From assembly GCA_000987045.1 (NCBI GenBank), contig LAKY01000008.1, forward strand, positions 44,443 to 108,442: 64,000 bases of DNA. The letters run 5' to 3'. Shown here one piece after another: positions 29-42,880 of the stretch. Each line of letters begins with the position of its first letter. Position 1 is the stretch's first letter. The notes below the pieces were generated by a model. The model was not told the origin of the DNA, ran no database searches, and was given only the letters and a program-made list of their open reading frames with translations. The DNA is from Clostridiales bacterium PH28_bin88. Its GTDB lineage: Bacteria; Bacillota; PH28-bin88. The position numbers and the translations under genes are program-made.

Positions 29-3000
29 GTTTCAATCCACACCCCCGTGCGGGGGTGAACATGACCGGCCTTGTAATGCCAGACCTGGAGAGGCAGTTTC
101 AATCCACACCCCCGTGCGGGGGTGAACCGAAGCCCACCGGACGGCAATCCTCGGCACCATCGTTTCAATCCACACCCCCGTGCGGGGGTGAACCATAGCG
201 AATACTATATACTGTAAATATCATAGAGTTTCAATCCACACCCCCGTGCGGGGGTGAACATCACTGTGCGGCCCAGGCCGCCCACTAGCATATGTTTCAA
301 TCCACACCCCCGTGCGGGGGTGAACTGCTACCGGTTACAATGTATGGGTCTTCGATGGTGTTTCAATCCACACCCCCGTGCGGGGGTGAACGCGATCAGC
401 CGGAAGGTGGAAGTATTTTCGTCTTGGTTTCAATCCACACCCCCGTGCGGGGGTGAACACAACTGTATCCGTCAGAGCGGCAAGCCTTTATGGGTTTCAA
501 TCCACACCCCCGTGCGGGGGTGAACGCCCATATAGCACCAAGCCAGTATTTTTTGCCATCGTTTCAATCCACACCCCCGTGCGGGGGTGAACCATCTCCA
601 CCAAACTTTTTTGATTGTCTATGGTGAGTTTCAATCCACACCCCCGTGCGGGGGTGAACGGTAACCTTCGGTACGTAGATCAATACCAAATACGGTTTCA
701 ATCCACACCCCCGTGCGGGGGTGAACGCATTCCTCTACGTCGTAATGGTTAAGATCAGTGTTTCAATCCACACCCCCGTGCGGGGGTGAACAAAGTACTA
801 CAACGGTCCTACCTTGGTCGGCATGGTTTCAATCCACACCCCCGTGCGGGGGTGAACCATTATGTGAAGCATCAGTTTCAATTAAATAATAGTTTCAATC
901 CACACCCCCGTGCGGGGGTGAACCTAGGTCCCGGTACTGAGCATACATGCCCCCGGTACTGAGCATACATGCCAGACTGTTTCAATCCACACCCCCGTGC
1001 GGGGGTGAACCTATATGGACGTGCGCACTCCCGGCAAGGCCTACGCTACAGGTTTCAATCCACACCCCCGTGCGGGGGTGAACAGTTTTTGCACGATGAG
1101 GATGTACAAGCCATACCGCGTTTCAATCCACACCCCCGTGCGGGGGTGAACGATAAGCTATGGCGGGTGCTTTGGCGCTTCTGGAGTTTCAATCCACACC
1201 CCCGTGCGGGGGTGAACCCGCCGAGATGATTGCCGCCGCCCGGGAGATCGTTGTTTCAATCCACACCCCCGTGCGGGGGTGAACCCTGTGCGCCAAGAGC
1301 AGCAGATAAAACCTTTAAGTTTCAATCCACACCCCCGTGCGGGGGTGAACCTAAGTCGTTAAGCTATACTGATTTGATTAGTGGTGTTTCAATCCACACC
1401 CCCGTGCGGGGGTGAACAAAATTTTCCAAAGGAGGTTGCATAATTCCATGAGTTTCAATCCACACCCCCGTGCGGGGGTGAACTTGGTACTTCAGAAAGG
1501 GAATGAACGTCATTAGAGTTTCAATCCACACCCCCGTGCGGGGGTGAACTGGAACAACCAGCCGAATACCCCTTGATCCTTAAGTTTCAATCCACACCCC
1601 CGTGCGGGGGTGAACGAGCCCGCTATAGAGGTTTTAAAGTTTTGAAGAGTTTCAATCCACACCCCCGTGCGGGGGTGAACCATTGGCCGTATCCGGGCAC
1701 CGGGGTTTTTCTCTGTTTCAATCCACACCCCCGTGCGGGGGTGAACATAACATCAATGAAGTAAGAAAATTAATAAAGAGTTTCAATCCACACCCCCGTG
1801 CGGGGGTGAACGGTTGGACTATCATTAACTACGATATACTCAATAGTTTCAATCCACACCCCCGTGCGGGGGTGAACCTGTAGTTTTAGTAATGATGATG
1901 ATGGCGTGATAGTTTCAATCCACACCCCCGTGCGGGGGTGAACGCGTACTGCAAAGCATTTTGAAATGTATCAGTGACAGTTTCAATCCACACCCCCGTG
2001 CGGGGGTGAACGTGTGCTTCGAGTTTTTTGTGCAGTTCCACGGGGAGTTTCAATCCACACCCCCGTGCGGGGGTGAACTCCCACGGCAGATCATTTACAA
2101 AATCGAAGAAATCGGTTTCAATCCACACCCCCGTGCGGGGGTGAACGCGCGGTACTGCTGCATGGTCCAACCGGCATTTTCGTTTCAATCCACACCCCCG
2201 TGCGGGGGTGAACGTGTGCGCGTGCGGGGGGAACCTAGCGGGTTGGTGTTTCAATCCACACCCCCGTGCGGGGGTGAACACGACCTAGCTAATTTTTTTG
2301 GGGTGGATGAGGCGTTTCAATCCACACCCCCGTGCGGGGGTGAACCTCCAGGGCCTCCTGAATTATTTCAGTTTTCGTCTGTTTCAATCCACACCCCCGT
2401 GCGGGGGTGAACCTCAAAAACAACTGGGGCTGGGTAGATCGCACCGGTTTCAATCCACACCCCCGTGCGGGGGTGAACCTGGCCCAAGGTGATGCCTGTG
2501 TGATATGCGGATGGTTTCAATCCACACCCCCGTGCGGGGGTGAACCCACCTTTTGAAACCGCCACAATATGATGCGTTAGTTTCAATCCACACCCCCGTG
2601 CGGGGGTGAACCGGGCTGGAGTACCGATGTGGTTTGCCATGTGCAAGTTTCAATCCACACCCCCGTGCGGGGGTGAACCTAGTTCTTCGATGTCCCTTTC
2701 ATCAATATCAAAGTTTCAATCCACACCCCCGTGCGGGGGTGAACGATGGTTCATTATCTTCTGCTGGCATTGAGATTGTGTTTCAATCCACACCCCCGTG
2801 CGGGGGTGAACGAAACCAAAATTAATCAATTGTTTTCCTACAATCTGTTTCAATCCACACCCCCGTGCGGGGGTGAACGTGAAGTGGGCCGACTGTTTTT
2901 GTTGTGTTTATCAGTTTCAATCCACACCCCCGTGCGGGGGTGAACAGGAAGGAATTGACGACGCTGAGGATGAAGTTGGGGTTTCAATCCACACCCCCGT

Positions 3001-6000
3001 GCGGGGGTGAACGGGGAAGCAGCCCGGAAAATGCGCTAGCAAACGCAGTTTCAATCCACACCCCCGTGCGGGGGTGAACACTACACTCGCTACATGGATG
3101 ACGTGGTCATTTTAGTTTCAATCCACACCCCCGTGCGGGGGTGAACGCGAAACGCTGAATTCAAAATCTCGCCATTAGAGTTTCAATCCACACCCCCGTG
3201 CGGGGGTGAACCTTACCTCCGACCGAAACTACGCATTAAATATGGCTGTTTCAATCCACACCCCCGTGCGGGGGTGAACCCTATCTATGCCGCCGATTTC
3301 GAACTGGCGAAAGTTTCAATCCACACCCCCGTGCGGGGGTGAACGAGAAAGCACGACAACGGTACGAGCAAAATTCGGGTTTCAATCCACACCCCCGTGC
3401 GGGGGTGAACCCAGCTTAACCGGGGTATTCGCGACCATATTCTGGTTTCAATCCACACCCCCGTGCGGGGGTGAACATGACGGTTTCGCGCTCTTCGCTA
3501 GTCATAGTAGTTTCAATCCACACCCCCGTGCGGGGGTGAACGTAGGAGACTGGAAATGGCCGAAAAAGCCGTCTAGTTTCAATCCACACCCCCGTGCGGG
3601 GGTGAACGGGACTGTGTTTGGCGTTAGGGACAAGTCGAGAGTTTCAATCCACACCCCCGTGCGGGGGTGAACATACTAAGTTTCGCGACACAATAAAAAA
3701 AGCGAGTTTCAATCCACACCCCCGTGCGGGGGTGAACATTATGAGAGGTTCAACCGGGACTGTTCATACGGTTTCAATCCACACCCCCGTGCGGGGGTGA
3801 ACCCCAGATCGTCACCAACCGGCTGATGGAAGTTAGAGTTTCAATCCACACCCCCGTGCGGGGGTGAACCAGATGCCTGTGACTGGGTGGATGGAGCAGA
3901 AGGTTTCAATCCACACCCCCGTGCGGGGGTGAACAGAGCCAGGACCGGTGGGAGGAACGGTTAAAAGGGTTTCAATCCACACCCCCGTGCGGGGGTGAAC
4001 CTCAAGACCACAACTATGATCACATTCTTCACCGAGTTTCAATCCACACCCCCGTGCGGGGGTGAACATTATCCGGGCAACTTTGGAGTGATTGCAAGGC
4101 AGTTTCAATCCACACCCCCGTGCGGGGGTGAACTGCGCGGCATAAGACTCTAGTAGTTCGTTCAACCTGTTTCAATCCACACCCCCGTGCGGGGGTGAAC
4201 TCTGGTCAGCCACCTGCCACCACGACGGCCACCAGTTTCAATCCACACCCCCGTGCGGGGGTGAACATTTGCTCGGCCTTCCTCTATTAGCCATCCACAC
4301 TGTTTCAATCCACACCCCCGTGCGGGGGTGAACTTCATCTTCCCCCGGGCACTCCCGCGCCCAGTCAGTTTCAATCCACACCCCCGTGCGGGGGTGAACG
4401 CGCGGGGGACAAAAATTAGTAGATGTGATGCTGGTTTCAATCCACACCCCCGTGCGGGGGTGAACTTTAGTTTAGTAGTAGAAATTTCTTTGACGTTAAT
4501 GTTTCAATCCACACCCCCGTGCGGGGGTGAACAGAATCATGTCTTCGCGCGTCAAACACTTGAAGGTTTCAATCCACACCCCCGTGCGGGGGTGAACAAG
4601 AGGCAAAGAAATAGCCGACACAAACGTGGCTGTTTCAATCCACACCCCCGTGCGGGGGTGAACAGTTTACATGTTTTGACTGGGACGGCAAAAATATCGT
4701 TTCAATCCACACCCCCGTGCGGGGGTGAACAGGCAAGGCCAGCCGAAAAGCCTGGTTCGCACCCTGTTTCAATCCACACCCCCGTGCGGGGGTGAACGAT
4801 CCCTATTGGTCCAAGCAGCTGGACTCCATGATGTTTCAATCCACACCCCCGTGCGGGGGTGAACTTGAGAGCGCGGCAGTCACCCCTGCAACCGTTGTGT
4901 TTCAATCCACACCCCCGTGCGGGGGTGAACGCATTCGACGTGCCATACCCCAACTTGCTTCAGAGTTTCAATCCACACCCCCGTGCGGGGGTGAACCGCA
5001 ATCTGCGACAGGGTATCACCTTTCTTGATGTTTCAATCCACACCCCCGTGCGGGGGTGAACCCAGGCGCCTACGCTGACCGGCAAATTTACTCTCCTGTT
5101 TCAATCCACACCCCCGTGCGGGGGTGAACTCGTGGTCCAAGTAAAGAGTGGGAAAGTTAATAGGTTTCAATCCACACCCCCGTGCGGGGGTGAACCTTAT
5201 GGATGCCGTGAAGCCGCTTATCCAGTGGTTGTTTCAATCCACACCCCCGTGCGGGGGTGAACATCTGTTCGGGATCAATTATCTGGCCACAAGTTGGTTT
5301 CAATCCACACCCCCGTGCGGGGGTGAACTGACTGATGTTGGCAAAAACCTGTCCCTTAAGCTGTTTCAATCCACACCCCCGTGCGGGGGTGAACGTACAT
5401 GAGTCGGGGCGATATCGTGGTGGATATGGTTTCAATCCACACCCCCGTGCGGGGGTGAACCACTTGTCTGATACCCTCCTGTTCCGTGATATGGGTTTCA
5501 ATCCACACCCCCGTGCGGGGGTGAACATAAGCCGCGGGCAACCACCGAGGGGGTTATCGTGTTTCAATCCACACCCCCGTGCGGGGGTGAACACAGCCTG
5601 TAGCACTCTCTTTCCCTTTGGGTCAGTTTCAATCCACACCCCCGTGCGGGGGTGAACCTCACCTTTTGCACGTCATTACGATGAATATCAAGTTTCAATC
5701 CACACCCCCGTGCGGGGGTGAACGCCAGGCTGGCGAGGCCATTGCCAGGGGTATCTTGTTTCAATCCACACCCCCGTGCGGGGGTGAACAGAAGTGACTA
5801 AAGAGGCCGTGGAAGAAAATGTGGTTTCAATCCACACCCCCGTGCGGGGGTGAACACCTGTTTTCAACGTATGTACCATGGGCTACGAGGTTTCAATCCA
5901 CACCCCCGTGCGGGGGTGAACGAGTTATTTTGAATGCCCCGGAAGGAATTGAAGTCGTTTCAATCCACACCCCCGTGCGGGGGTGAACTTGCTCGCGAAC

Positions 6001-6453
6001 AGTTGAAGGCCCGCATCGAAGAGTTTCAATCCACACCCCCGTGCGGGGGTGAACGGATCTGCTCCTCCAGCCCGGCCAACTCCGTCGTCGTTTCAATCCA
6101 CACCCCCGTGCGGGGGTGAACTTAGCTGGCTCGGCCACTGGGAAATAATCATTCGCGTTTCAATCCACACCCCCGTGCGGGGGTGAACGTCAACGTAGTA
6201 GTAATACCCTGTCGCGTTTTTGTTTCAATCCACACCCCCGTGCGGGGGTGAACGCCGGACACCGGTGACTTCCTGGACTTCCAAGGGGTTTCAATCCACA
6301 CCCCCGTGCGGGGGTGAACGCAGGCTAAGGTGGTGGCCACCGCAGTCCAAGAGGGTTTCAATCCACACCCCCGTGCGGGGGTGAACTTTGCTAGTATAGA
6401 GGGAGTATTGCCTGCGTTCTGGTTTCAATCCACACCCCCGTGCGGGGGTGAAC
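29..6453 (-). CRISPR. Type I-C CRISPR array, 97 repeats in the window
   Basis: I count 97 copies of a 32-bp repeat, the first at 29-60 and the last at 6422-6453, and saw no variant among them. On the plus strand each begins GTTTCAATCC and ends GGGGGTGAAC around a CACCCCC/GGGGGTG palindrome. Read on the minus strand the repeat ends GGATTGAAAC, the usual 3' end of type I-C repeats, so the array is transcribed leftward from a leader beside cas2. The 96 complete spacers are 33-36 nt except two neighbours of 55 nt (924-978) and 41 nt (1011-1051). The repeat at the left edge is undegenerate and preceded by 28 nt that could be part of a further spacer, so the array probably continues outside the window. 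Open frames reading through it are artefacts of the regular spacing. Confidence 0.99.
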
Positions 6454-6629
6454 ATCAGCCTGCGTTTTGTCCTGGTTTAGTGGCTTTCGTTACCAAGTTT
6501 CGCGTACCTCAAAAATAGCCCTCGGTTTTCCTGAACGGTGAAGTAAAAAGTAAACCCTAAAGCAGAAGGCGCGTGGTTCGCGGACCTTTTGACTTATTCT
6601 GTTTGGTGACGGTACGCGCCGACCCAGCT
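6454..6629 (-). promoter_or_regulatory. CRISPR leader between cas2 and the array
   Basis: The 176 bp between the leader-end repeat and the cas2 stop have no gene. With the array read leftward, this is the expected leader position, where transcription starts and new spacers enter. The sequence holds A/T-rich runs near 6541-6560 and two similar minus-strand motifs, GTCCGCGAACC near 6575-6585 and GTACGCGAAAC near 6497-6507, which could be protein-binding repeats. The promoter itself is not clear enough to place. Confidence 0.7.
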
Positions 6630-6920
6630 TCACAGGATAAGGGGCTCTTCCTGGGTATAATGGAGTTCCAGCCCGTAGTGTTCTACCCTCCTTTTCCAGT
6701 TCTTACCCAGATAATATACTCGGAGGGAATCTTTATCTGGATCGATAATATCCAGTAACCTGCCTTTAAGTATGACTAGTTGTGCCGGATCAATAAGGCA
6801 TTCAAAAACCGAATTCTGTACCCGCTGTCCATAGTTTTCGCAGGCTTTGGCAACTCTTCTCAACCTTTTTTGCCCACCGACATTCACTGTGTTGACGTCA
6901 TAAGTAATAAGTACCATCAT
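6630..6920 (-). CDS. cas2: CRISPR-associated endonuclease Cas2
   Basis: This 96-residue protein has the normal Cas2 length. It opens with MMVLITYDV, the first ferredoxin-fold strand carrying the conserved Asp (ITYDV), and contains the typical QNSVFEC segment. In the Cas1-Cas2 complex, a Cas2 dimer bridges two Cas1 dimers and acts as the ruler for spacer integration. It is the last cas gene, 15 bp after cas1, and directly precedes the leader. Either of the first two Met codons could be the start. Confidence 0.97.
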   Translation of the reverse strand: MMVLITYDVNTVNVGGQKRLRRVAKACENYGQRVQNSVFECLIDPAQLVILKGRLLDIIDPDKDSLRVYYLGKNWKRRVEHYGLELHYTQEEPLIL

Positions 6921-6935
6921 AATAAATTTGTACCC

Positions 6936-7961
6936 CTACTTCCAGTAAAATGGTGGATAGAAATCCAAGTCGCCACGGAGGTGGCGGGCCAGCAACTGGG
7001 CTTGCAGGTGAGGGATCAGGCCGATCGGAACTTTTTCATCAAGGTAAGGATGGATAATCTCTTCCTTTTTACGCTTCTGCCAGGCTGTAATGACAGTTTT
7101 TCGAGTATCTTCGTTAATATTTATGCCGGTGGGCGTAATGTCGAAGTCATCCCCCTGTACTTGTTTAAGGTTAATCATGGCTACGACCATCCGGTCGCAT
7201 AAAGGGGCCCGGAGTTCTTCCATGAGATCAAGAGCCAGGCTGGGTCTGCCGGGTCGCAAGGCGTGGAGGTACCCCACGGCCGGGTCAAGACCAACTCCCT
7301 CCAGGGCTGAGCGTACATCGTTGGCCAGAAGCATATAAAGGAACGAGAGCAGCGCATTGGTTCGATCAACGGGCGGTCTTTTGGTGCGTTTTTTTAAGTT
7401 GAACTCTTCCCTGTTGACTTTAATCATGCGGTCGAAGGCAGCGAAGTAGCGGTTTGCGATAATACCCTCTGCTCCACGGAGTTGATCTAGATTTTCGGCC
7501 GTTTTCACCTGAGAAGCCAGACAGGCAATATCTGCTGCTGCTTGTTGCAGTCTTTCGGTATCCTCCGGATCCTTGCTTTCCCTGGCGCTTCTCAAGAGTA
7601 CGTTCCGGCCGTTGGCAATTTTGGCGGCGACAAAATTCTTGGCCAGGGGCAGGCCCAGTGCACTTTTTGTGGCGAAATACTGGGCAGTCCTTAAGAGCAC
7701 ATTACCGCGGACGGGACCCTCAATGCGACCGTAAAATCTGCCCTGTTCACTGAAGAAGGCCAATCCGATGCCTCTCTCGCCACAAAAGGCGATCAGGGGA
7801 GTAGACACAGTTGTTTTGCTAAAACAAAGCACGGATTCCAGGTTATGGATCGGCACCCGCACTTTTTCGTTTCCTCCCACATGAATGCAAATGGTCTCGC
7901 CCTGCTTGGACAGATAGGAGTCTTCAGTCAGCACATACAAGATGTTTAAAAGACGTTTCAC
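6936..7961 (-). CDS. cas1: CRISPR-associated integrase Cas1 (type I-C)
   Basis: The 341-residue protein is the spacer integrase. The metal-binding residues are visible: Glu in GAEGIIANRYF, His in GYLHALRPGRPS, and the acidic LALDLMEELRAP segment. The N-terminal beta domain precedes the helical catalytic domain as in the type I-C subfamily. Its ATG overlaps the cas4 stop (4-bp overlap), so cas4, cas1 and cas2 form a translationally coupled adaptation module. Confidence 0.97.
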   Translation of the reverse strand: MKRLLNILYVLTEDSYLSKQGETICIHVGGNEKVRVPIHNLESVLCFSKTTVSTPLIAFCGERGIGLAFFSEQGRFYGRIEGPVRGNVLLRTAQYFATKSALGLPLAKNFVAAKIANGRNVLLRSARESKDPEDTERLQQAAADIACLASQVKTAENLDQLRGAEGIIANRYFAAFDRMIKVNREEFNLKKRTKRPPVDRTNALLSFLYMLLANDVRSALEGVGLDPAVGYLHALRPGRPSLALDLMEELRAPLCDRMVVAMINLKQVQGDDFDITPTGININEDTRKTVITAWQKRKKEEIIHPYLDEKVPIGLIPHLQAQLLARHLRGDLDFYPPFYWK

Positions 7962-8626
7962 GACTCATCACCCTTTTCGACTGCAGCCCACAGTTCTTTG
8001 ATATAGCGTTCAGCCGAGGTCTTAGCCCTGGGCAAGCAATCTTCTTGAAGTGAACACTCACGGCACTTCCGGCTTTTTGCTACTGGTGGAGTGACGCCAG
8101 TTCGCAACATTTCATGCAGACTTTCCGCTCCTCTTCTTACCAATTCCCTGAGTTCGGGAGTAAAGGCAACCTCTTTCCGCCGGTGATCTTTTGCATAGTA
8201 GATGAAACCCCTTTTAACCACACATCCAAGCATCTCCTCCAAACAGACGGCCTGAGCACATAGCTGCACTTCGTACTCCAGTTCGTCCCGTACCCGGCCG
8301 TGTTTATATTCCACGGGCACTGTCTCCCAAAGACCCTCCATGCCTTTTACAGGAAAACCTCCGGCGGCCGCATAAAGTTCGATGCTGTCAGCGACACCGA
8401 ACAGGCCCAGGCGTAAGGAGTGAAGGGGAAGGCCCCTCAACCGCACCAGATCCGGGCGCGTTTCCCTGTTGCCCTGATGGACGTGTTGGTGGATGATGGA
8501 GCCTTCCGCTGTATGAACGTTATCGGACCACTGCTGCTCGATGAGCAACAATCCCGCCCGCCTGGGGCAATAATAGTACTGGGACAGGGAGGAAATCGGT
8601 ATCAGGTTATCTTCGGTATAGGTCAT
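7958..8626 (-). CDS. cas4: CRISPR-associated exonuclease Cas4
   Basis: This RecB-family nuclease trims prespacers and helps select PAM-adjacent DNA for Cas1-Cas2. An N-terminal YYCPRR motif and a C-terminal C-x2-C-x5-C group ([11 protein letters not shown]) would hold the Fe-S cluster. PVEYKHGR carries the nuclease Glu-x-Lys. I place the start at 8626, where ATG overlaps the cas7 TGA as ATGA and a GAGGT lies just upstream; an in-frame ATG at 8641 would add five residues and lie inside cas7. Confidence 0.95.
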
Positions 8627-9630
8627 TGAACCTCGACCCAATCAAGGCCTTCCGCAGAGTTAGCCGGGATCACCTGAACACCGCCGGAGTAAGGCTTAGC
8701 GAAAAAGATTTCCACGCCGGCGGGAAGCTTGCTCACGTTTACCCGCAAAAAGTAATCCCGGTAATCCCGGGGCGCTTCTACCCCGTCTTTCTTTTGTACC
8801 CGGACCAGGTCAAAGAGCTGGTGAGCAGGTACGCAGCCCAGTTGGGCCTGGCTTTCTCTTTGTGTCTCATCCGAATCCGTACCGACGTGCTTGAATATGA
8901 TCAGGGGCGGAACGGTGGACATCTGCCCTTTGCTGGATGAACGATCGTGTTCGTACATATTTAACAGGGCTTCCCATAAAAGTTTCAGGTCATCATCACA
9001 GAATTCGGTTTCCCGGGCCAGGTTGGCGCTGATGAAACCACGTCCCTCGTACAGTCCATACGGGATCAGTTGCTTGCGGCCCATGGTGCGGAGCGAATCT
9101 TCAGGCTGATTATTTTCCCATTCTTCGTAGTCCGCAAAGGTGGCAATCTCTTTTTTCAGGTTTTCAGCTACAGCCATGCGCGTAATGGAAATGTCCAGGG
9201 GCAGCACCGGATCGAGAGAGCGCAGGAACGTCAACTGTACCGGTCCCCTGACCTGTCCGGCGTTGGGCCCGGTAGAGAGCACGCCGCCGAAGGTACGAAC
9301 GTCGTAAAAGTTCCGGCACAACCACCGGCGGGCGGCATCCACCTTGCTCTTGGTCTTTTCCATTTTGCTATTACCGGTCTCCTCGTGGGCTTTGGCAATG
9401 TACTTGTTGATGTTGGTGGACTGTTGGATGACAATACCGTAATTTTCTTCTTCCGGTTTAGCATACTGAATATAGTTGCGGATGCGGCGCTTGACAGCCA
9501 CATCGCTGATCAACCCCCGCATATCCTGGGGATCGATACGGGGCGAGTTGCCCATGTCGGGATCGCCGTTGGGGTTGCCGTTTTTGCACTCGACAAAATA
9601 CATGAACTCGTAACGGTTGGTGATGGACAT
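8623..9630 (-). CDS. cas7c: Type I-C Cascade backbone protein Cas7 (Csd2)
   Basis: The 335-residue protein opens with [18 protein letters not shown] followed by [13 protein letters not shown], the hallmark N-terminus of Csd2/Csh2-type Cas7. Several copies polymerise along the crRNA to form the Cascade backbone. It lies between cas8c and cas4, and a GGAGG ribosome site sits just upstream near 9641. It is slightly longer than many Csd2 proteins; the C-terminal stretch after about residue 290 shows nothing distinctive. Confidence 0.96.
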
Positions 9631-9648: not shown

Positions 9649-11391
9649 TTATTTGTCCTTGTGGCCGGCGTATCCGGCAAACATGGCGGCTTTTTGCTGG
9701 TAATACCCGAGGGCGAATAGCGTTTGACCTTCCAGGGTGAGAGTACCGGGCAGGTCATCACCCACTTGGGCCGCGATTTCCGCCAGCAGCTTTTCATACC
9801 AGACGGCCAGCCCCTTTTCCAGTTTGTCCAGGTGGTGCTGGGCACCCCGGACCAGCCGGCCCAGCACCAAGGCCGGGGTGGTGCTGGCGGCGGCGTAGTA
9901 CCGTTGTACCACTCCGGCGCCCACATCGCCTAATGCACTCTGCTGAATGGCCGCCAGTACCGCCATGAGACGACCGGCATGATAAGCCGGCGCCGGGTGA
10001 TTGGGGTTAAGATGGGTTTTCATTGCCTTACCTCCTTCACTGGATTTGTTCCTGATCAACCATGCCTTGAGCAAGGCACAGGCCACCCGGTCAAGGTTAT
10101 CTAAAGTTTTGCCATCATCGGTGCTGTAAAGTGTAGACCGGATGTAAGCCAGGGCTTTGCTGGCCACCACATCGGGAAAGGGCAGGTTACCGAGAATGCT
10201 GCGCCAAACTCTGGGCATGAGGGGCGGCAGTTCCCGGTCAATCCGCTCCATGGTCTTCCGAATACCTTCATTTTTCCGGTAGGATACCATCCGGATGAGG
10301 GCTGCCGTTAGTTTGAAGTCCTGGGCCCTGCCCTTGCCATCGGGTGAAGTGATCTCCAGATCGGCAAACCACTTTCTCAGGTTGTCGGCCAGCCCGTGGA
10401 AGTCCCCCTCCAGCCAGTCCCGGACCATGATGCGACCGCCGGTAGCCGAAACTTGCAGGATAAAGTAGCGGTTATGTAAAAGGTCCGGGCGCTTGCCTTC
10501 TTCCACTGCCTTGAGAAGTCGTTCTACCTTCTCCCGGGCGCCGGCTTCTTCTGCCTCGGGGTTTTCCAGGACGGCAAAATCCAGCAGGTTGTCTTCCTCG
10601 GGAACCGGTTCCTTGAACCAGGCGAGAAACATGGTCCCGGCCAGCGGCGGCGGCGCCTTGGCAATCAAGGCTTCAAGGGCGCTACGGTACATGGCCGCTG
10701 ATTCTTCCGAACAGGCGGCGTTGAGGGATTGTTCCAGCCCATAGGAAGTAAAGGATTCTTTGTCAAATCCTACTAGCACGGTCCCGGTGGACTGGCCACC
10801 AACACGTGTCATACCGGAAATCTTAAAGTGTGTCAGCCGCGGTTTGGCTTGTTCCCCGCTCAACAGGCAGACCATGCTGTTCCCTGTCTCATCCCCCGGC
10901 TTGAGCGACCGGCGGAACTGCTGCCACCAGCCGTGCCACGTGTTTAGTTCAACGGGATAAACATTGCCCACGCGAAAAGTCACCGCATCAGTCTTTCTGG
11001 CCTTGGCCGCTTTCAGGACCTCATTGATTTGCTGCTTGATCTCGCTATTGTTCAAGAGATCGACAATTTTTCCCATGATTGGTTCCTGCGCCGCCGCCTG
11101 CCGCAGCAGTTCGATGAAGTAACTGTGTTTGAGTAGTTCTTTTCCACTGGCGTCAAAAGCGGTGACCACGCCTAGCGCATCCAGGAGAAAGTGGCTGCGC
11201 TTCACACCTCCGGCGATAAGCTCATTTTGCTGTAAATCCGGAGCCAGGACGAATTCCCGTCTTTCCTCCACAAGATCCACGAAGCGCCCGTCTTCAGTCA
11301 AGACGATAATCCAGCGGGCCGTCTTGGGCTTGAAGCCGGGAAGACAATGCACATTATATTTAACCGCGTAGTTTGCCAGTTCATGGAGCAT
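9649..11391 (-). CDS. cas8c: Type I-C Cascade large subunit Cas8c (Csd1)
   Basis: The 580-residue protein begins MLHELANYAV, the usual Csd1 start, and lies between cas5c and cas7c as in type I-C operons. Cas8c recognises the PAM and, with its C-terminal helical part and an internally encoded Cas11c-like small subunit in studied systems, holds the non-target strand. A GGAGGT site precedes the start. An internal Cas11c start was not resolved: an ATG (MKTHLNPNHPAPAYHAG) at about 10022, preceded by GGAGG, is a good candidate. Confidence 0.95.
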   Translation of the reverse strand: MLHELANYAVKYNVHCLPGFKPKTARWIIVLTEDGRFVDLVEERREFVLAPDLQQNELIAGGVKRSHFLLDALGVVTAFDASGKELLKHSYFIELLRQAAAQEPIMGKIVDLLNNSEIKQQINEVLKAAKARKTDAVTFRVGNVYPVELNTWHGWWQQFRRSLKPGDETGNSMVCLLSGEQAKPRLTHFKISGMTRVGGQSTGTVLVGFDKESFTSYGLEQSLNAACSEESAAMYRSALEALIAKAPPPLAGTMFLAWFKEPVPEEDNLLDFAVLENPEAEEAGAREKVERLLKAVEEGKRPDLLHNRYFILQVSATGGRIMVRDWLEGDFHGLADNLRKWFADLEITSPDGKGRAQDFKLTAALIRMVSYRKNEGIRKTMERIDRELPPLMPRVWRSILGNLPFPDVVASKALAYIRSTLYSTDDGKTLDNLDRVACALLKAWLIRNKSSEGGKAMKTHLNPNHPAPAYHAGRLMAVLAAIQQSALGDVGAGVVQRYYAAASTTPALVLGRLVRGAQHHLDKLEKGLAVWYEKLLAEIAAQVGDDLPGTLTLEGQTLFALGYYQQKAAMFAGYAGHKDK

Positions 11392-11403
11392 GCGATCACC
11401 TCC

Positions 11404-12108
11404 TTACACTGGTTTTTTCACCATTTCACTTTCCCAGGGCGGGACTTCCAGGACGCCGTCCACCAGTTGGGCTTTGAACAAACTGATTAAAGGAGCAGCG
11501 GTATCGATGACTACTTCGTCGAGATTGAAGACGTCATAGAGCATCCAGCCGATGTCGATGTTTTCTGCCGCGGGTCTGGCTTCCCCCCCGGCCAGGGCGA
11601 AATAGGCGGCGAATTCCCGGCAGCCCAGGTAAGGCTGGTAAAAACACTTGCCCTTGCTGATGCGCCTTTGGGCCTGTTCTTCCAGGGCTTTTAGTCTTCC
11701 TTCAAAACCGGGCCGGGGCTGGATGTGAGCGTGTATCCGGTAGTGGACGTCTTTTAGGGCGATGGTTTGCCTCTGGGTACGGCCTTTGGCATCGGTACCA
11801 GAGAGTTCTCTGGTGGCATCAACAACAATGGGTTCGAATTCCCCGCCATTACGGGCAGCAGCCAGGGCAGCCCTTTCGCTGATCTTGTCCTTCACTTCAT
11901 TTCGCCGCAGGGCGATAAACTGGATGGGCTTCAGCACCTCAATCTTTTCCACTCGCCAGGAAAACTCCAGGGGTTTGGCATGGATGGCATCCAGAATGCC
12001 CCTGGCGGCGGAAGGGGTCATCACCGGGTAACTCAGTCTTTCCACTTTTGCTTCAGGTCTGGTGAAGCAGGCAAAATCCCCCCATACTTCTACTACAAAT
12101 GTGTGCAA
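11404..12108 (-). CDS. cas5c: Type I-C pre-crRNA endonuclease Cas5c (Cas5d)
   Basis: Type I-C systems lack Cas6, and Cas5c cleaves the pre-crRNA and caps the 5' handle. The VEVWGD and ACFTRPEAKVERLSYPV segments near the N-terminus are characteristic of the family. I favour a TTG start at 12108 because AAAGGAGGG lies seven bases upstream and the protein then begins (M)HTFVVEVWGD. An upstream GTG at 12129 overlaps the cas3 stop and would add seven residues. The gene is followed 13 bp later by cas8c. Confidence 0.95.
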   Translation of the reverse strand: MHTFVVEVWGDFACFTRPEAKVERLSYPVMTPSAARGILDAIHAKPLEFSWRVEKIEVLKPIQFIALRRNEVKDKISERAALAAARNGGEFEPIVVDATRELSGTDAKGRTQRQTIALKDVHYRIHAHIQPRPGFEGRLKALEEQAQRRISKGKCFYQPYLGCREFAAYFALAGGEARPAAENIDIGWMLYDVFNLDEVVIDTAAPLISLFKAQLVDGVLEVPPWESEMVKKPV

Positions 12109-12125
12109 CTCTCTCTTCCCTCCTT

Positions 12126-14369
12126 TCACGCGAAATAGGTTCCGCCGGTTTCCTTGAGATCCAGGCCGGTTTCCGGGGAATAGGCCTCAGGCTTGAGCAA
12201 AAGGTACCACCCCGTGGTTTTATCATGACGGTCACGGACAGGCTCCAGTAAACCCCAGATATCGCTGTGACGGTTGGCCCGGTGACCCACCCCCAAGAGC
12301 CGGGCACGTTTAAGCCAGTCCCTGCTGAAACCGCCATTTCTGGCCAGCTCGCAAAGTTCCTGGTAGGTTTGCAGTTCCGGTTCATAGGGCACCAGGATGT
12401 TGACGGAGTTATCGGGTATCCACCGGTAGTGCCGGGCGATGCTGTCAAAGTTAAAAGCCTGGATGGCCTCAGCCAGTTCCTTGTCTTCAAAGTGAGCCAA
12501 ATCATTATGAAAGTAGCGCCGGTAATACTCCTTGATGGTTTCCGGATCACCGATGTCCAAGTATTTTTCCATCAGCATCATCTGTACTTCCACTGCCGCC
12601 TTCTGGTAGGCCCGGTCCGGGTATTGTTCATCTTCACGGGGCGGCCGGAATACGGTTACCTCACCGAAGGGAAGGCCCCCTTCCCGGTTGCATCGCCCGG
12701 CGGCCTGGCAGATGGCTTCCAGGGGAGCCAATGCCCGCCAGACAGCAGGGAAATCCAGGTCTACCCCCGCCTCCACGCACTGGGTGGAGATCAGGCGGCA
12801 GGCTCGGGGTTCCCGTTCTGCATCCCGCCGCAAGCGCTCTTTTACATCTGCGATCACGGCCACCCGGTGGGCGGGACACATATCCGTGGAAAGATGGTAG
12901 ACGTCCTCAGGACCACTATGGTCTTTGACCTGCTGGTAGAGCTTTTTGGCCTGTTTCCTGGTATTTACTATGGCCAGCACCTGGCGTCTGGAAGCCAGTT
13001 CTCCCGCTACTTGATCCCAGGGCAGATGACCCTGCCACCGGACTTCGACTTTCCGGGTACGCTGGAACAGGTTCAATCCGGGAGGGATCAGTTCCCGGGG
13101 CTGCCAGCCGTTAGCAGCATACCTTTTTACTTCTGAATCGAAAGTTTCAAAGGCAGGCTGCGTCGCGGTAGAAAAGACGACGGAACAGCCAAAACGTTGA
13201 ACAAGCTGCGCCATGGCCGCCAGAGTATATACCGTCAGACCGGGTGGCATGGATTGGGCTTCGTCGAAGAGAATAATCGAGTTGCTGATATTGTGGAGGC
13301 GACGGCAGGGGCTGGAACGGTGAGCAAAGAGTCCTTCGAAAAAGCGGACAGTAGTTGTAACGATGATGGGGGCATCCCAGTTTTCCGCCAGGAGGCGCTG
13401 CTCTTCGGGCAGCTCCGATAGACTGTGGTCCTCCAGTACCAGGGGCTTGTCTCCAAGTGAATTAAAGACACGCTGGTAAACGCGGGCGTTCTGTTCAATG
13501 ATATTCAGGTAAGGCATGACAATGATGACGCGGCGAAGATTGTGCTGAGCTGCGTGTCTTAAGGCGAAGGCCAGCATGGACAGGGTTTTACCGGCGCCGG
13601 TAGGCGCAGTCAGGGTGTACACCCCGCGGGGCTTTTCCCCGCCCATGAGGCAGGCTTGAAACAGGTCGTCCCGTAAAGAGCGCATCTCCTGGTGAGCAGA
13701 AGATGTTTTTCTTACATGCTCCATGTGTTCCAGGAGCGCCGATAGCAGCATGTCAGGTTCCAGTTTCTCCCCCGGAGGCCGGTATATGTACTCCGCTCCC
13801 TCGCTCGCGAAATGGGCTTCAGTGGCAAGAAAGTCCGCATCCACCAGGGCCGAAAAAAGCATCCGGACATAGAGCATAGCGGCAATGCGGCGGTTGTTAC
13901 GATAATCATCAGGATAGTCACTGCTGATTTCAGCGGGAGGTTTGAGCCTATCTTCCTTCAGGTAAGCTAAAAGGGCATTCACGTCACGGGATGAAAAAGT
14001 CTTGCCTGATGAAGAGATGGGCTCCTTCATCGAAACCGCAACATTCAATTCCCTGGGGTACCCGCTCTGCAAGCCATCATGGTGTCCCTGTACAGCCACG
14101 GCTGCCGCCAGGCCTTGATTTCCATATTTTTTGAGAAGAGCCAAAGCTCCGGGCGTGGCATGGTCTATGTTGATGGCCTCTCTGTCCAGAACCTGCCGGA
14201 ATAGATCTGTGTATTTCCCGAGATCATGCAGTAACCCCGCCGCTTCCCCTTCTTCTCCCCGACCCCAGGCGGAGACAAACCGGCGGGCCAGAACGGCCGT
14301 TTCGCGAAGGTGGTCGGCTACCGTTTCTTTTCTTCCGCCTTTATTCTGTGAATGAGCGTAAAAAACCAA
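12126..14369 (-). CDS. cas3: CRISPR-associated helicase-nuclease Cas3
   Basis: The 747-residue effector is recruited to R-loops by Cascade and degrades target DNA. The HD nuclease domain comes first (His20 and HDLGK at 48-52), then the superfamily 2 helicase with Walker A APTGAGKT near 260, a DEAQ box in ILFDEAQSMP, motif V STQCVEAGVDLDF and motif VI AAGRCNREG. It starts with TTG at 14369, eight bases after AGGAGG. It is the first gene of the cas operon; the A/T-rich DNA at 14371-14450 is the likely promoter region. Confidence 0.97.
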   Translation of the reverse strand: MVFYAHSQNKGGRKETVADHLRETAVLARRFVSAWGRGEEGEAAGLLHDLGKYTDLFRQVLDREAINIDHATPGALALLKKYGNQGLAAAVAVQGHHDGLQSGYPRELNVAVSMKEPISSSGKTFSSRDVNALLAYLKEDRLKPPAEISSDYPDDYRNNRRIAAMLYVRMLFSALVDADFLATEAHFASEGAEYIYRPPGEKLEPDMLLSALLEHMEHVRKTSSAHQEMRSLRDDLFQACLMGGEKPRGVYTLTAPTGAGKTLSMLAFALRHAAQHNLRRVIIVMPYLNIIEQNARVYQRVFNSLGDKPLVLEDHSLSELPEEQRLLAENWDAPIIVTTTVRFFEGLFAHRSSPCRRLHNISNSIILFDEAQSMPPGLTVYTLAAMAQLVQRFGCSVVFSTATQPAFETFDSEVKRYAANGWQPRELIPPGLNLFQRTRKVEVRWQGHLPWDQVAGELASRRQVLAIVNTRKQAKKLYQQVKDHSGPEDVYHLSTDMCPAHRVAVIADVKERLRRDAEREPRACRLISTQCVEAGVDLDFPAVWRALAPLEAICQAAGRCNREGGLPFGEVTVFRPPREDEQYPDRAYQKAAVEVQMMLMEKYLDIGDPETIKEYYRRYFHNDLAHFEDKELAEAIQAFNFDSIARHYRWIPDNSVNILVPYEPELQTYQELCELARNGGFSRDWLKRARLLGVGHRANRHSDIWGLLEPVRDRHDKTTGWYLLLKPEAYSPETGLDLKETGGTYFA

Positions 14370-42232: not shown

Positions 42233-42880
42233 TTAGCATCCGTCCCGCTTTTCCAGGTAGCGCTCCAGCTTCCGCTTGACCCGCTGCAGTGCGTTGTCGA
42301 TGGACTTTACGTGACGCTTCAGGTCCACCGCAATCTCCTGATAGGACTTGCCTTCCAGGTATGACATCAGGACCTGCCATTCCAGGGAACTCAGGATTTC
42401 TCCCATCTTTTCCTCGATATCATCAAATTCTTCCCGGCTGATAATCAACTCTTCCGGGTCTGTCACCTTGGAGCCGGAAATCACGTCCAGCAAGGTACGG
42501 TCCGAATCCTCGTCATAAATCGGTTTATTTAATGATACATATGAGTTCAACGGTATATGCTTTTGCCGGGTAGCGGTCTTGATGGCCGTAATGATCTGGC
42601 GAGTTATACAAAGCTCGGCAAATGCCCGGAACGAAGACAGTTTATCGCCCCGAAAATCCCTGATGGCTTTGTAAAGGCCGATCATCCCTTCCTGGATGAT
42701 ATCCTCCCGGTCAGCGCCGATTAAGAAATATGACCGGGCTTTCGCCCGCACAAAGTTTTTATACTTGTTAATTAAATACTCCTGGGCAATATCGTCGCCT
42801 TCCTGTGCCAGTTCTACGATATCTTCGTCGACCATTACCTCGTAGACATCGCAAGTTTCCCGCTGGACGTTGATGCTCAT
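42233..42880 (-). CDS. sigH: RNA polymerase sigma factor SigH (Spo0H)
   Basis: The 215-residue sigma-70 factor has region 2 (YFLIGADREDIIQEGMIGLY), a TATRQKHIPLNSYVSLNKP linker typical of SigH, and a region 4 helix-turn-helix (GKSYQEIAVDLKRHVKSIDN). SigH directs early sporulation and competence genes. Its place beside yacP and rlmB is the common Firmicute order. It ends 195 bp upstream of the tRNA-Tyr gene. Confidence 0.95.
   Translation of the reverse strand: MSINVQRETCDVYEVMVDEDIVELAQEGDDIAQEYLINKYKNFVRAKARSYFLIGADREDIIQEGMIGLYKAIRDFRGDKLSSFRAFAELCITRQIITAIKTATRQKHIPLNSYVSLNKPIYDEDSDRTLLDVISGSKVTDPEELIISREEFDDIEEKMGEILSSLEWQVLMSYLEGKSYQEIAVDLKRHVKSIDNALQRVKRKLERYLEKRDGC

Follow-up and report, generated by a model that had tools for sequence, protein, structure and literature searches.

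The window that we analyzed, a stretch of 64,000 nucleotides from Clostridiales bacterium PH28_bin88 (contig LAKY01000008.1, positions 44,443 to 108,442), carries near its left end a CRISPR array of 97 identical 32-nt repeats and 96 complete spacers (positions 29-6453, minus strand), which runs on leftward for ~1.75 kb past the window, to position 42691 of the contig (our C45). Together, the window and this left extension hold 116 distinct readable spacers. On its right, beyond a presumed leader (6454-6629, minus strand) that was assigned from its position alone, the array is adjoined by a cas3-cas5-cas8c-cas7-cas4-cas1-cas2 operon, whose seven genes all lie on the minus strand and, by their Pfam matches, stand in the type I-C order: cas2 (6630-6920; PF09827, E = 1.5e-27), cas1 (6936-7961; PF01867, E = 2.6e-100), cas4 (7958-8641; PF01930, E = 2.7e-19), cas7 (8623-9630; PF05107, E = 3.7e-87), cas8c or Csd1 (9649-11391; PF09709, E = 3.5e-100), cas5d (11404-12129; PF09704, E = 1.4e-23), and cas3 with its HD and helicase domains (12126-14369; PF22590, PF00270, and PF01966). 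Type I-C arrays typically have a 32-nt repeat with a ATTGAAAC ending and spacers of about 34-35 nt. Here, the 32-nt repeat ends in GGATTGAAAC in the minus orientation and 94 of the 96 complete spacers in the window measure 33-36 nt, which, together with the complete set of cas genes, confirms the type I-C assignment of the original prediction. Repeat orientation and cas gene order suggest that the array is transcribed leftward from the cas side. Two further signs that are usual for orientation add no support, as the presumed leader shows no marked A+T richness (54% over 6454-6600) and the far-end repeats are intact, with no degenerate copies in the left extension.

Positions 3080-3114 correspond to exactly one 35-nt spacer, the 46th of the 96 complete spacers from the left and the 51st from the cas side. 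It is flanked by two identical repeats, on the left at 3048-3079 (GTTTCAATCCACACCCCCGTGCGGGGGTGAAC on the plus strand) and on the right at 3115-3146, the latter marking the presumed PAM side of the protospacer; like the array, all three elements were assigned to the minus strand, for the spacer based on repeat orientation and cas order. Read on the plus strand, frame 3 of the spacer is open and yields YTRYMDDVVIL, exactly as had been predicted, while frame 1 reads TTLATWMTWSF. The peptide contains YMDD, the form of the catalytic motif of reverse transcriptases (RTs) that is associated with diversity-generating retroelements (DGRs). Across all six frames, [YF]xDD occurred in this spacer alone among the 96, and it was absent from the 22 usable intervals read farther left in the flanking locus L039, a few of which are common to the window.

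The occurrence of YTRYMDDVVIL in this spacer is not a matter of chance. We scored spacers against a profile built from 43 distinct 11-residue DGR-type RT active sites, whose members themselves score at about 31-39 bits. The spacer peptide reached 36.3 bits, within the range of the members, and the runner-up among the 96 spacers reached 0.85 bits. Among 384,000 shuffled spacers, scored wherever the peptide contained DD, the best attained 11.6 bits, so that none came up to the score of the spacer, and a loose RT regular expression matched 10 of the 384,000. The loci behind the profile (the best 80 of 561) were fetched by the patterns [YW][TIA]RYMDD or SQ[LD]FAN[ILV]Y, and because many were thus picked by the spacer's own peptide, the profile is partly circular, as is the third-position bias described below. 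Given the size of the score gap, this circularity is unimportant for the question of chance, while it still matters for separating RT classes.

A motif that is not random in sequence could nonetheless be a coincidence in origin, if the protospacer belonged to an unrelated gene or was read in a different frame. Such an origin would be consistent with the lack of a protospacer in the collections searched, and any famous motif may be noticed when many spacers are scanned. Moreover, the motif or a near match also occurs outside recognizable RTs: one of the three genome contigs that matched TRYMDDVV (L035) encodes it in a 286-aa ORF without RT motif 4, which by our reading looks like a methyltransferase, and in contigs L153 and L154, a 371-aa ORF that lacks SQ contains YTRYMDEPAIL. 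The shuffling result argues against coincidence, as does the finding that RYMDDVVIL (with a CGN arginine) occurred in 23 IMG/VR contigs and lay inside an RT ORF in 23 of 23. The refuting case named in the original prediction, a perfect protospacer in non-RT DNA or in a different frame, did not turn up in the collections searched. We consider a coincidental motif very improbable, and the target of the spacer is very probably an RT gene. As an aside, L153 and L154 are filed under enteric phages in the phage collection, and their YTRYMDEPAIL closely resembles the spacer peptide.

The RTs nearest to this motif were mostly of the DGR type. According to the available text of two surveys, the motif 4 signature (I/V/L)GxxxSQ marks DGR RTs, in which the variable residue of YxDD is most often M (53%), followed by V (33%) (PMC3521204), and the DGR clade combines SQ with Y(V/M)DD in 57 of its 62 members (PMC4244168). 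The suggestion that YMDD is typical of DGR RTs accords with the survey, where M is the commonest residue at this position (PMC3521204). The spacer shows the DGR form of motif 5, YMDD, in its frame, while motif 4 falls outside its 35 nt. In the matching RTs, motif 4 read [ILV]GxxxSQ in 22 of the 23 viral RTs with RYMDDVVIL, the exception (L015) being a GxxxSH variant, IGGGLSH. The longer TRYMDDVV was found in three viral and three genome contigs and belonged to an SQ-type RT in all three of the former and two of the latter. Overall, 27 of the 28 RTs retrieved by the spacer's own peptide contained GxxxSQ. Using a script that seeks pairs of repeats in which one copy has A at the differing positions, we detected adenine-biased pairs of the kind that TR/VR should form in 20 of 31 YMDD RT loci and in 72 of the best 80 of 561 homology-selected loci, compared with 0 of 32 control loci, which were mostly shorter (median 3,621 bases), and 0 of 7 chunks of the window. 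Some of these loci are not independent, since they represent the same contigs (L014/L090, L036/L082, and L013/L086) or share an identical motif window (L011, L019, and L023; likewise L016 and L026). The SQ motifs and adenine-biased repeats near this motif indicate that its neighborhood in sequence space consists of true DGRs.

The nucleotide sequence of the spacer behaved similarly. Its initial AC, preceding the first full codon, implies a codon NAC (Tyr, His, Asn, or Asp), and such a residue was present in 66 of 96 DGR windows. In the ten closest windows, the mismatches numbered 7, 7, and 53 at codon positions 1, 2, and 3, an excess at third positions (53 of 67) such as coding relatives should show, although the loci were largely chosen by peptide.

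Could the spacer instead derive from another class of RT with YMDD, such as a group II intron, retron, Abi/DRT, or unclassified RT? The motif alone is not proof of class, and 11 of the 31 YMDD loci were without adenine-biased repeats, to which may be added the IGGGLSH of L015. Furthermore, three phage RTs that we examined matched no NCBIfam DGR model; their matches were to models for group II, Drt3a, and retron RTs, with scores well short of the cut-offs. Yet RTs of the group II intron type combine YADD with QGxxxSP, whereas the spacer encodes YMDD, and on a profile of 19 distinct group II sites it scored 18.1 bits versus 36.3 bits on the DGR profile. RTs of the host and its relatives were of this other kind, with QGxxxSP in 30 of 30 parsed loci (of 31), 29 with YADD and 1 with FADD. 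The motif tabulation left L051 of these 31 loci and L072 of the 80 DGR loci unparsed, and two host loci, L003 (a truncated FADD ORF) and L004 (a C-terminal piece), stood outside it. With these data and the 27 of 28 GxxxSQ motifs at hand, another RT class appears improbable, and the spacer probably targets a DGR RT whose phage or prophage has not been sampled.

The same host RTs bear on the notion of self-targeting, in which the spacer would be directed at an RT element of the host itself or one resident in it. The host genome does contain RT genes, with four matches to PF00078. These belong to the group II type and have YADD or FADD, and the spacer was single-copy in the window as well as in the host genome, which at up to three mismatches matched it at the spacer itself alone, in an assembly of 99 contigs where a resident element may have been missed. 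We rejected self-targeting on these two grounds and regard it as extremely unlikely.

The protospacer itself was not found in the collections searched. An exact search with the whole spacer gave 0 matches in IMG/VR, each of two 20-nt parts of the spacer gave none, and patterns of synonymous codons gave 0 matches in IMG/VR and 0 in genome contigs, where the pattern covered all of the spacer but two bases at its start and one at its end. Likewise, 149 relatives at up to three mismatches and 299 genomes of the phylum, searched with a degenerate pattern, contained no protospacer apart from the array itself. The original prediction had proposed comparing the spacer with phage and plasmid sequences by BLAST. 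At E values up to 10, blastn returned 22 phage records, and of the 20 listed matches, six were DGR RTs by annotation or inspection: three came from records of one phage, FP_Mushu, two from phages of Vibrio and Aeromonas, and one from a fecal contig that shares the motif. The other 14 were not, or did not look like, RTs and comprised 11 Acinetobacter phage records, two of which were inspected, and three others (H16, H19, and H20); five plasmid matches carried no RT annotation, one of these records being unannotated altogether. Many of the blastn matches were thus non-RT, which counts against the DGR reading, and none was the protospacer.

Among the relatives, the nearest RT windows shared 29 of 35 bases (L022) and 28 of 35 (L014, L033, and L036) with the spacer. 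The RT of Faecalibacterium phage FP_Mushu (NC_047913.1), reached via nucleotide search alone, has YTRYMDDVVVI and 27 of 35 bases in common with it, and this phage, whose DGR is described in the available text of PMC11792537, has an Avd gene adjoining the RT and adenine-biased repeats. It differs from the spacer at 8 of 35 bases and continues with GCG instead of GAA as the next codon, and is hence not the protospacer. DGR-type RTs were also found in two Clostridia MAGs, Butyricicoccus sp. (L033) and Candidatus Fimivivens faecavium (L034), and in the IMG/VR contig L036. Their motif 4 reads LGNVSSQ or LGNVTSQ, and L033 and L036 encode YTRYMDDVVII, which agrees with the spacer in 10 of 11 residues. 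All three differ from it by at least seven mismatches and have GCG, GCG, and GTA, respectively, rather than GAA on the PAM side; in L034 and L036, no repeat pair was found within the stretch examined. An active site with YMDD is also shared with Brt, the RT of the Bordetella phage BPP-1 DGR, a likeness that we draw from its published description, in which a YMDD-to-SMAA mutant serves as the RT-deficient control (PMC3240598, PMC12875486). We considered whether a spacer at the catalytic site might protect broadly against many DGR phages, and dropped this idea because even the closest RT has 6 mismatches to the 35 bases. Six mismatches in 35 are more than type I systems usually tolerate.

The main result against a DGR source is the absence of the expected PAM from related DGR windows. 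As the available text of PMC11640852 gives TTC as the type I-C PAM, GAA would be expected after position 3114 on the coding strand, that is, a Glu codon following VVIL. GAA was found beside the site in 0 of 96 distinct sampled DGR windows, and GRR in 9 of 96. A looser PAM, YYC, is known for Bacillus halodurans, and GRR would fit it. A targeted scan for RYMDD followed by hydrophobic codons and GAA picked out one IMG/VR contig, L156, which encodes a DGR-type RT (IGNLTSQ, IIRYMDDIIILE) with 24 of 35 bases in common with the spacer. Hence, a PAM-compatible DGR RT does exist, though it is rare in this sample. Other spacers of the array matched the fetched loci over 15-17 nt at most, so that no PAM could be derived from them.

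Overall, we suggest, with a probability of roughly 0.83, that the spacer is a normal type I-C memory cut from the DGR RT gene of a phage or prophage absent from the collections searched. Cas1, Cas2, and Cas4 would have captured a 35-bp fragment that by chance covered the RT motif 5 codons; transcription from the cas side would then yield a minus-strand guide RNA antisense to the RT coding sequence and its message, which could direct Cascade (Cas5, Cas7, and Cas8c) and Cas3 to the phage DNA. As the spacer spells the catalytic site of a DGR-type RT, the ancestors of this strain probably met such a phage. The original prediction is thus partly supported: its RT reading and its leaning towards DGRs hold up well at the protein level, and the proposed encounter with an RT-bearing phage or element is probable, though the collections searched contained no protospacer; judging from the sequence, an RT-bearing phage is the likely source, and a prophage or other element may have supplied the gene. 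We lean towards a DGR phage of this poorly sampled bacterial lineage, present in none of these collections, with an RT whose active site, YTRYMDDVVIL, was unmatched in full by the codon patterns run on IMG/VR and the genome contigs.

The event itself is ordinary CRISPR biology, with an ordinary spacer whose target is unusually legible. Few spacers lacking a protospacer can be assigned a target, and this one can be because it covers the most recognizable stretch of the RT gene. Earlier studies connected phages, some of them DGR phages, with hosts through spacers (PMC8144416, PMC11792537, PMC8008677), and in the available text of two of these studies a chromosomal spacer likewise points to a DGR-bearing phage, the links resting there on spacer-protospacer identity over whole phage genomes and here on the encoded RT motif (PMC8144416, PMC11792537). 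Spacers matching DGR phages were thus already known, and the mechanism is unchanged. The available text of a survey of viral genes matched by spacers does not mention reverse transcriptase (PMC6401485), and a limited search of partly accessible literature brought up no spacer at an RT catalytic site, a kind of spacer that would be expected to occur. If our reading is correct, this lineage is connected with a DGR phage that has a probably hypermutated variable protein, and the memory of the host would be stored in the RT gene, a part of the phage that the DGR itself is not expected to mutate.

Finally, some observations concern the remainder of the array and its surroundings. Compared with phages by blastn, the array gave weak matches (41-43 bits), and one unannotated fecal contig matched it in seven pieces, which we take to be a candidate further CRISPR array. 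Left of the window, in the fetched flanking locus L039, runs of N lie inside spacers near 11289, 11509, and 12318, each flanked on both sides by the same partial spacer sequence, which makes the array length on this side uncertain. About 4 kb left of the array, again outside the window on C45, L039 holds a lone variant repeat with a GTGCGAGGGTAAAC end (L039:6657-6688). Within the window, the 55-nt spacer at 924-978 is a tandem duplication that contains CCCGGTACTGAGCATACATGCC twice, compared with the usual length of 33-36 nt, and is possibly an oddity of acquisition or assembly. The spacer at 2214-2247 contains CGTGCGGGGGGAAC, almost the entire second half of the repeat of this array, and looks like a piece acquired from a CRISPR array.
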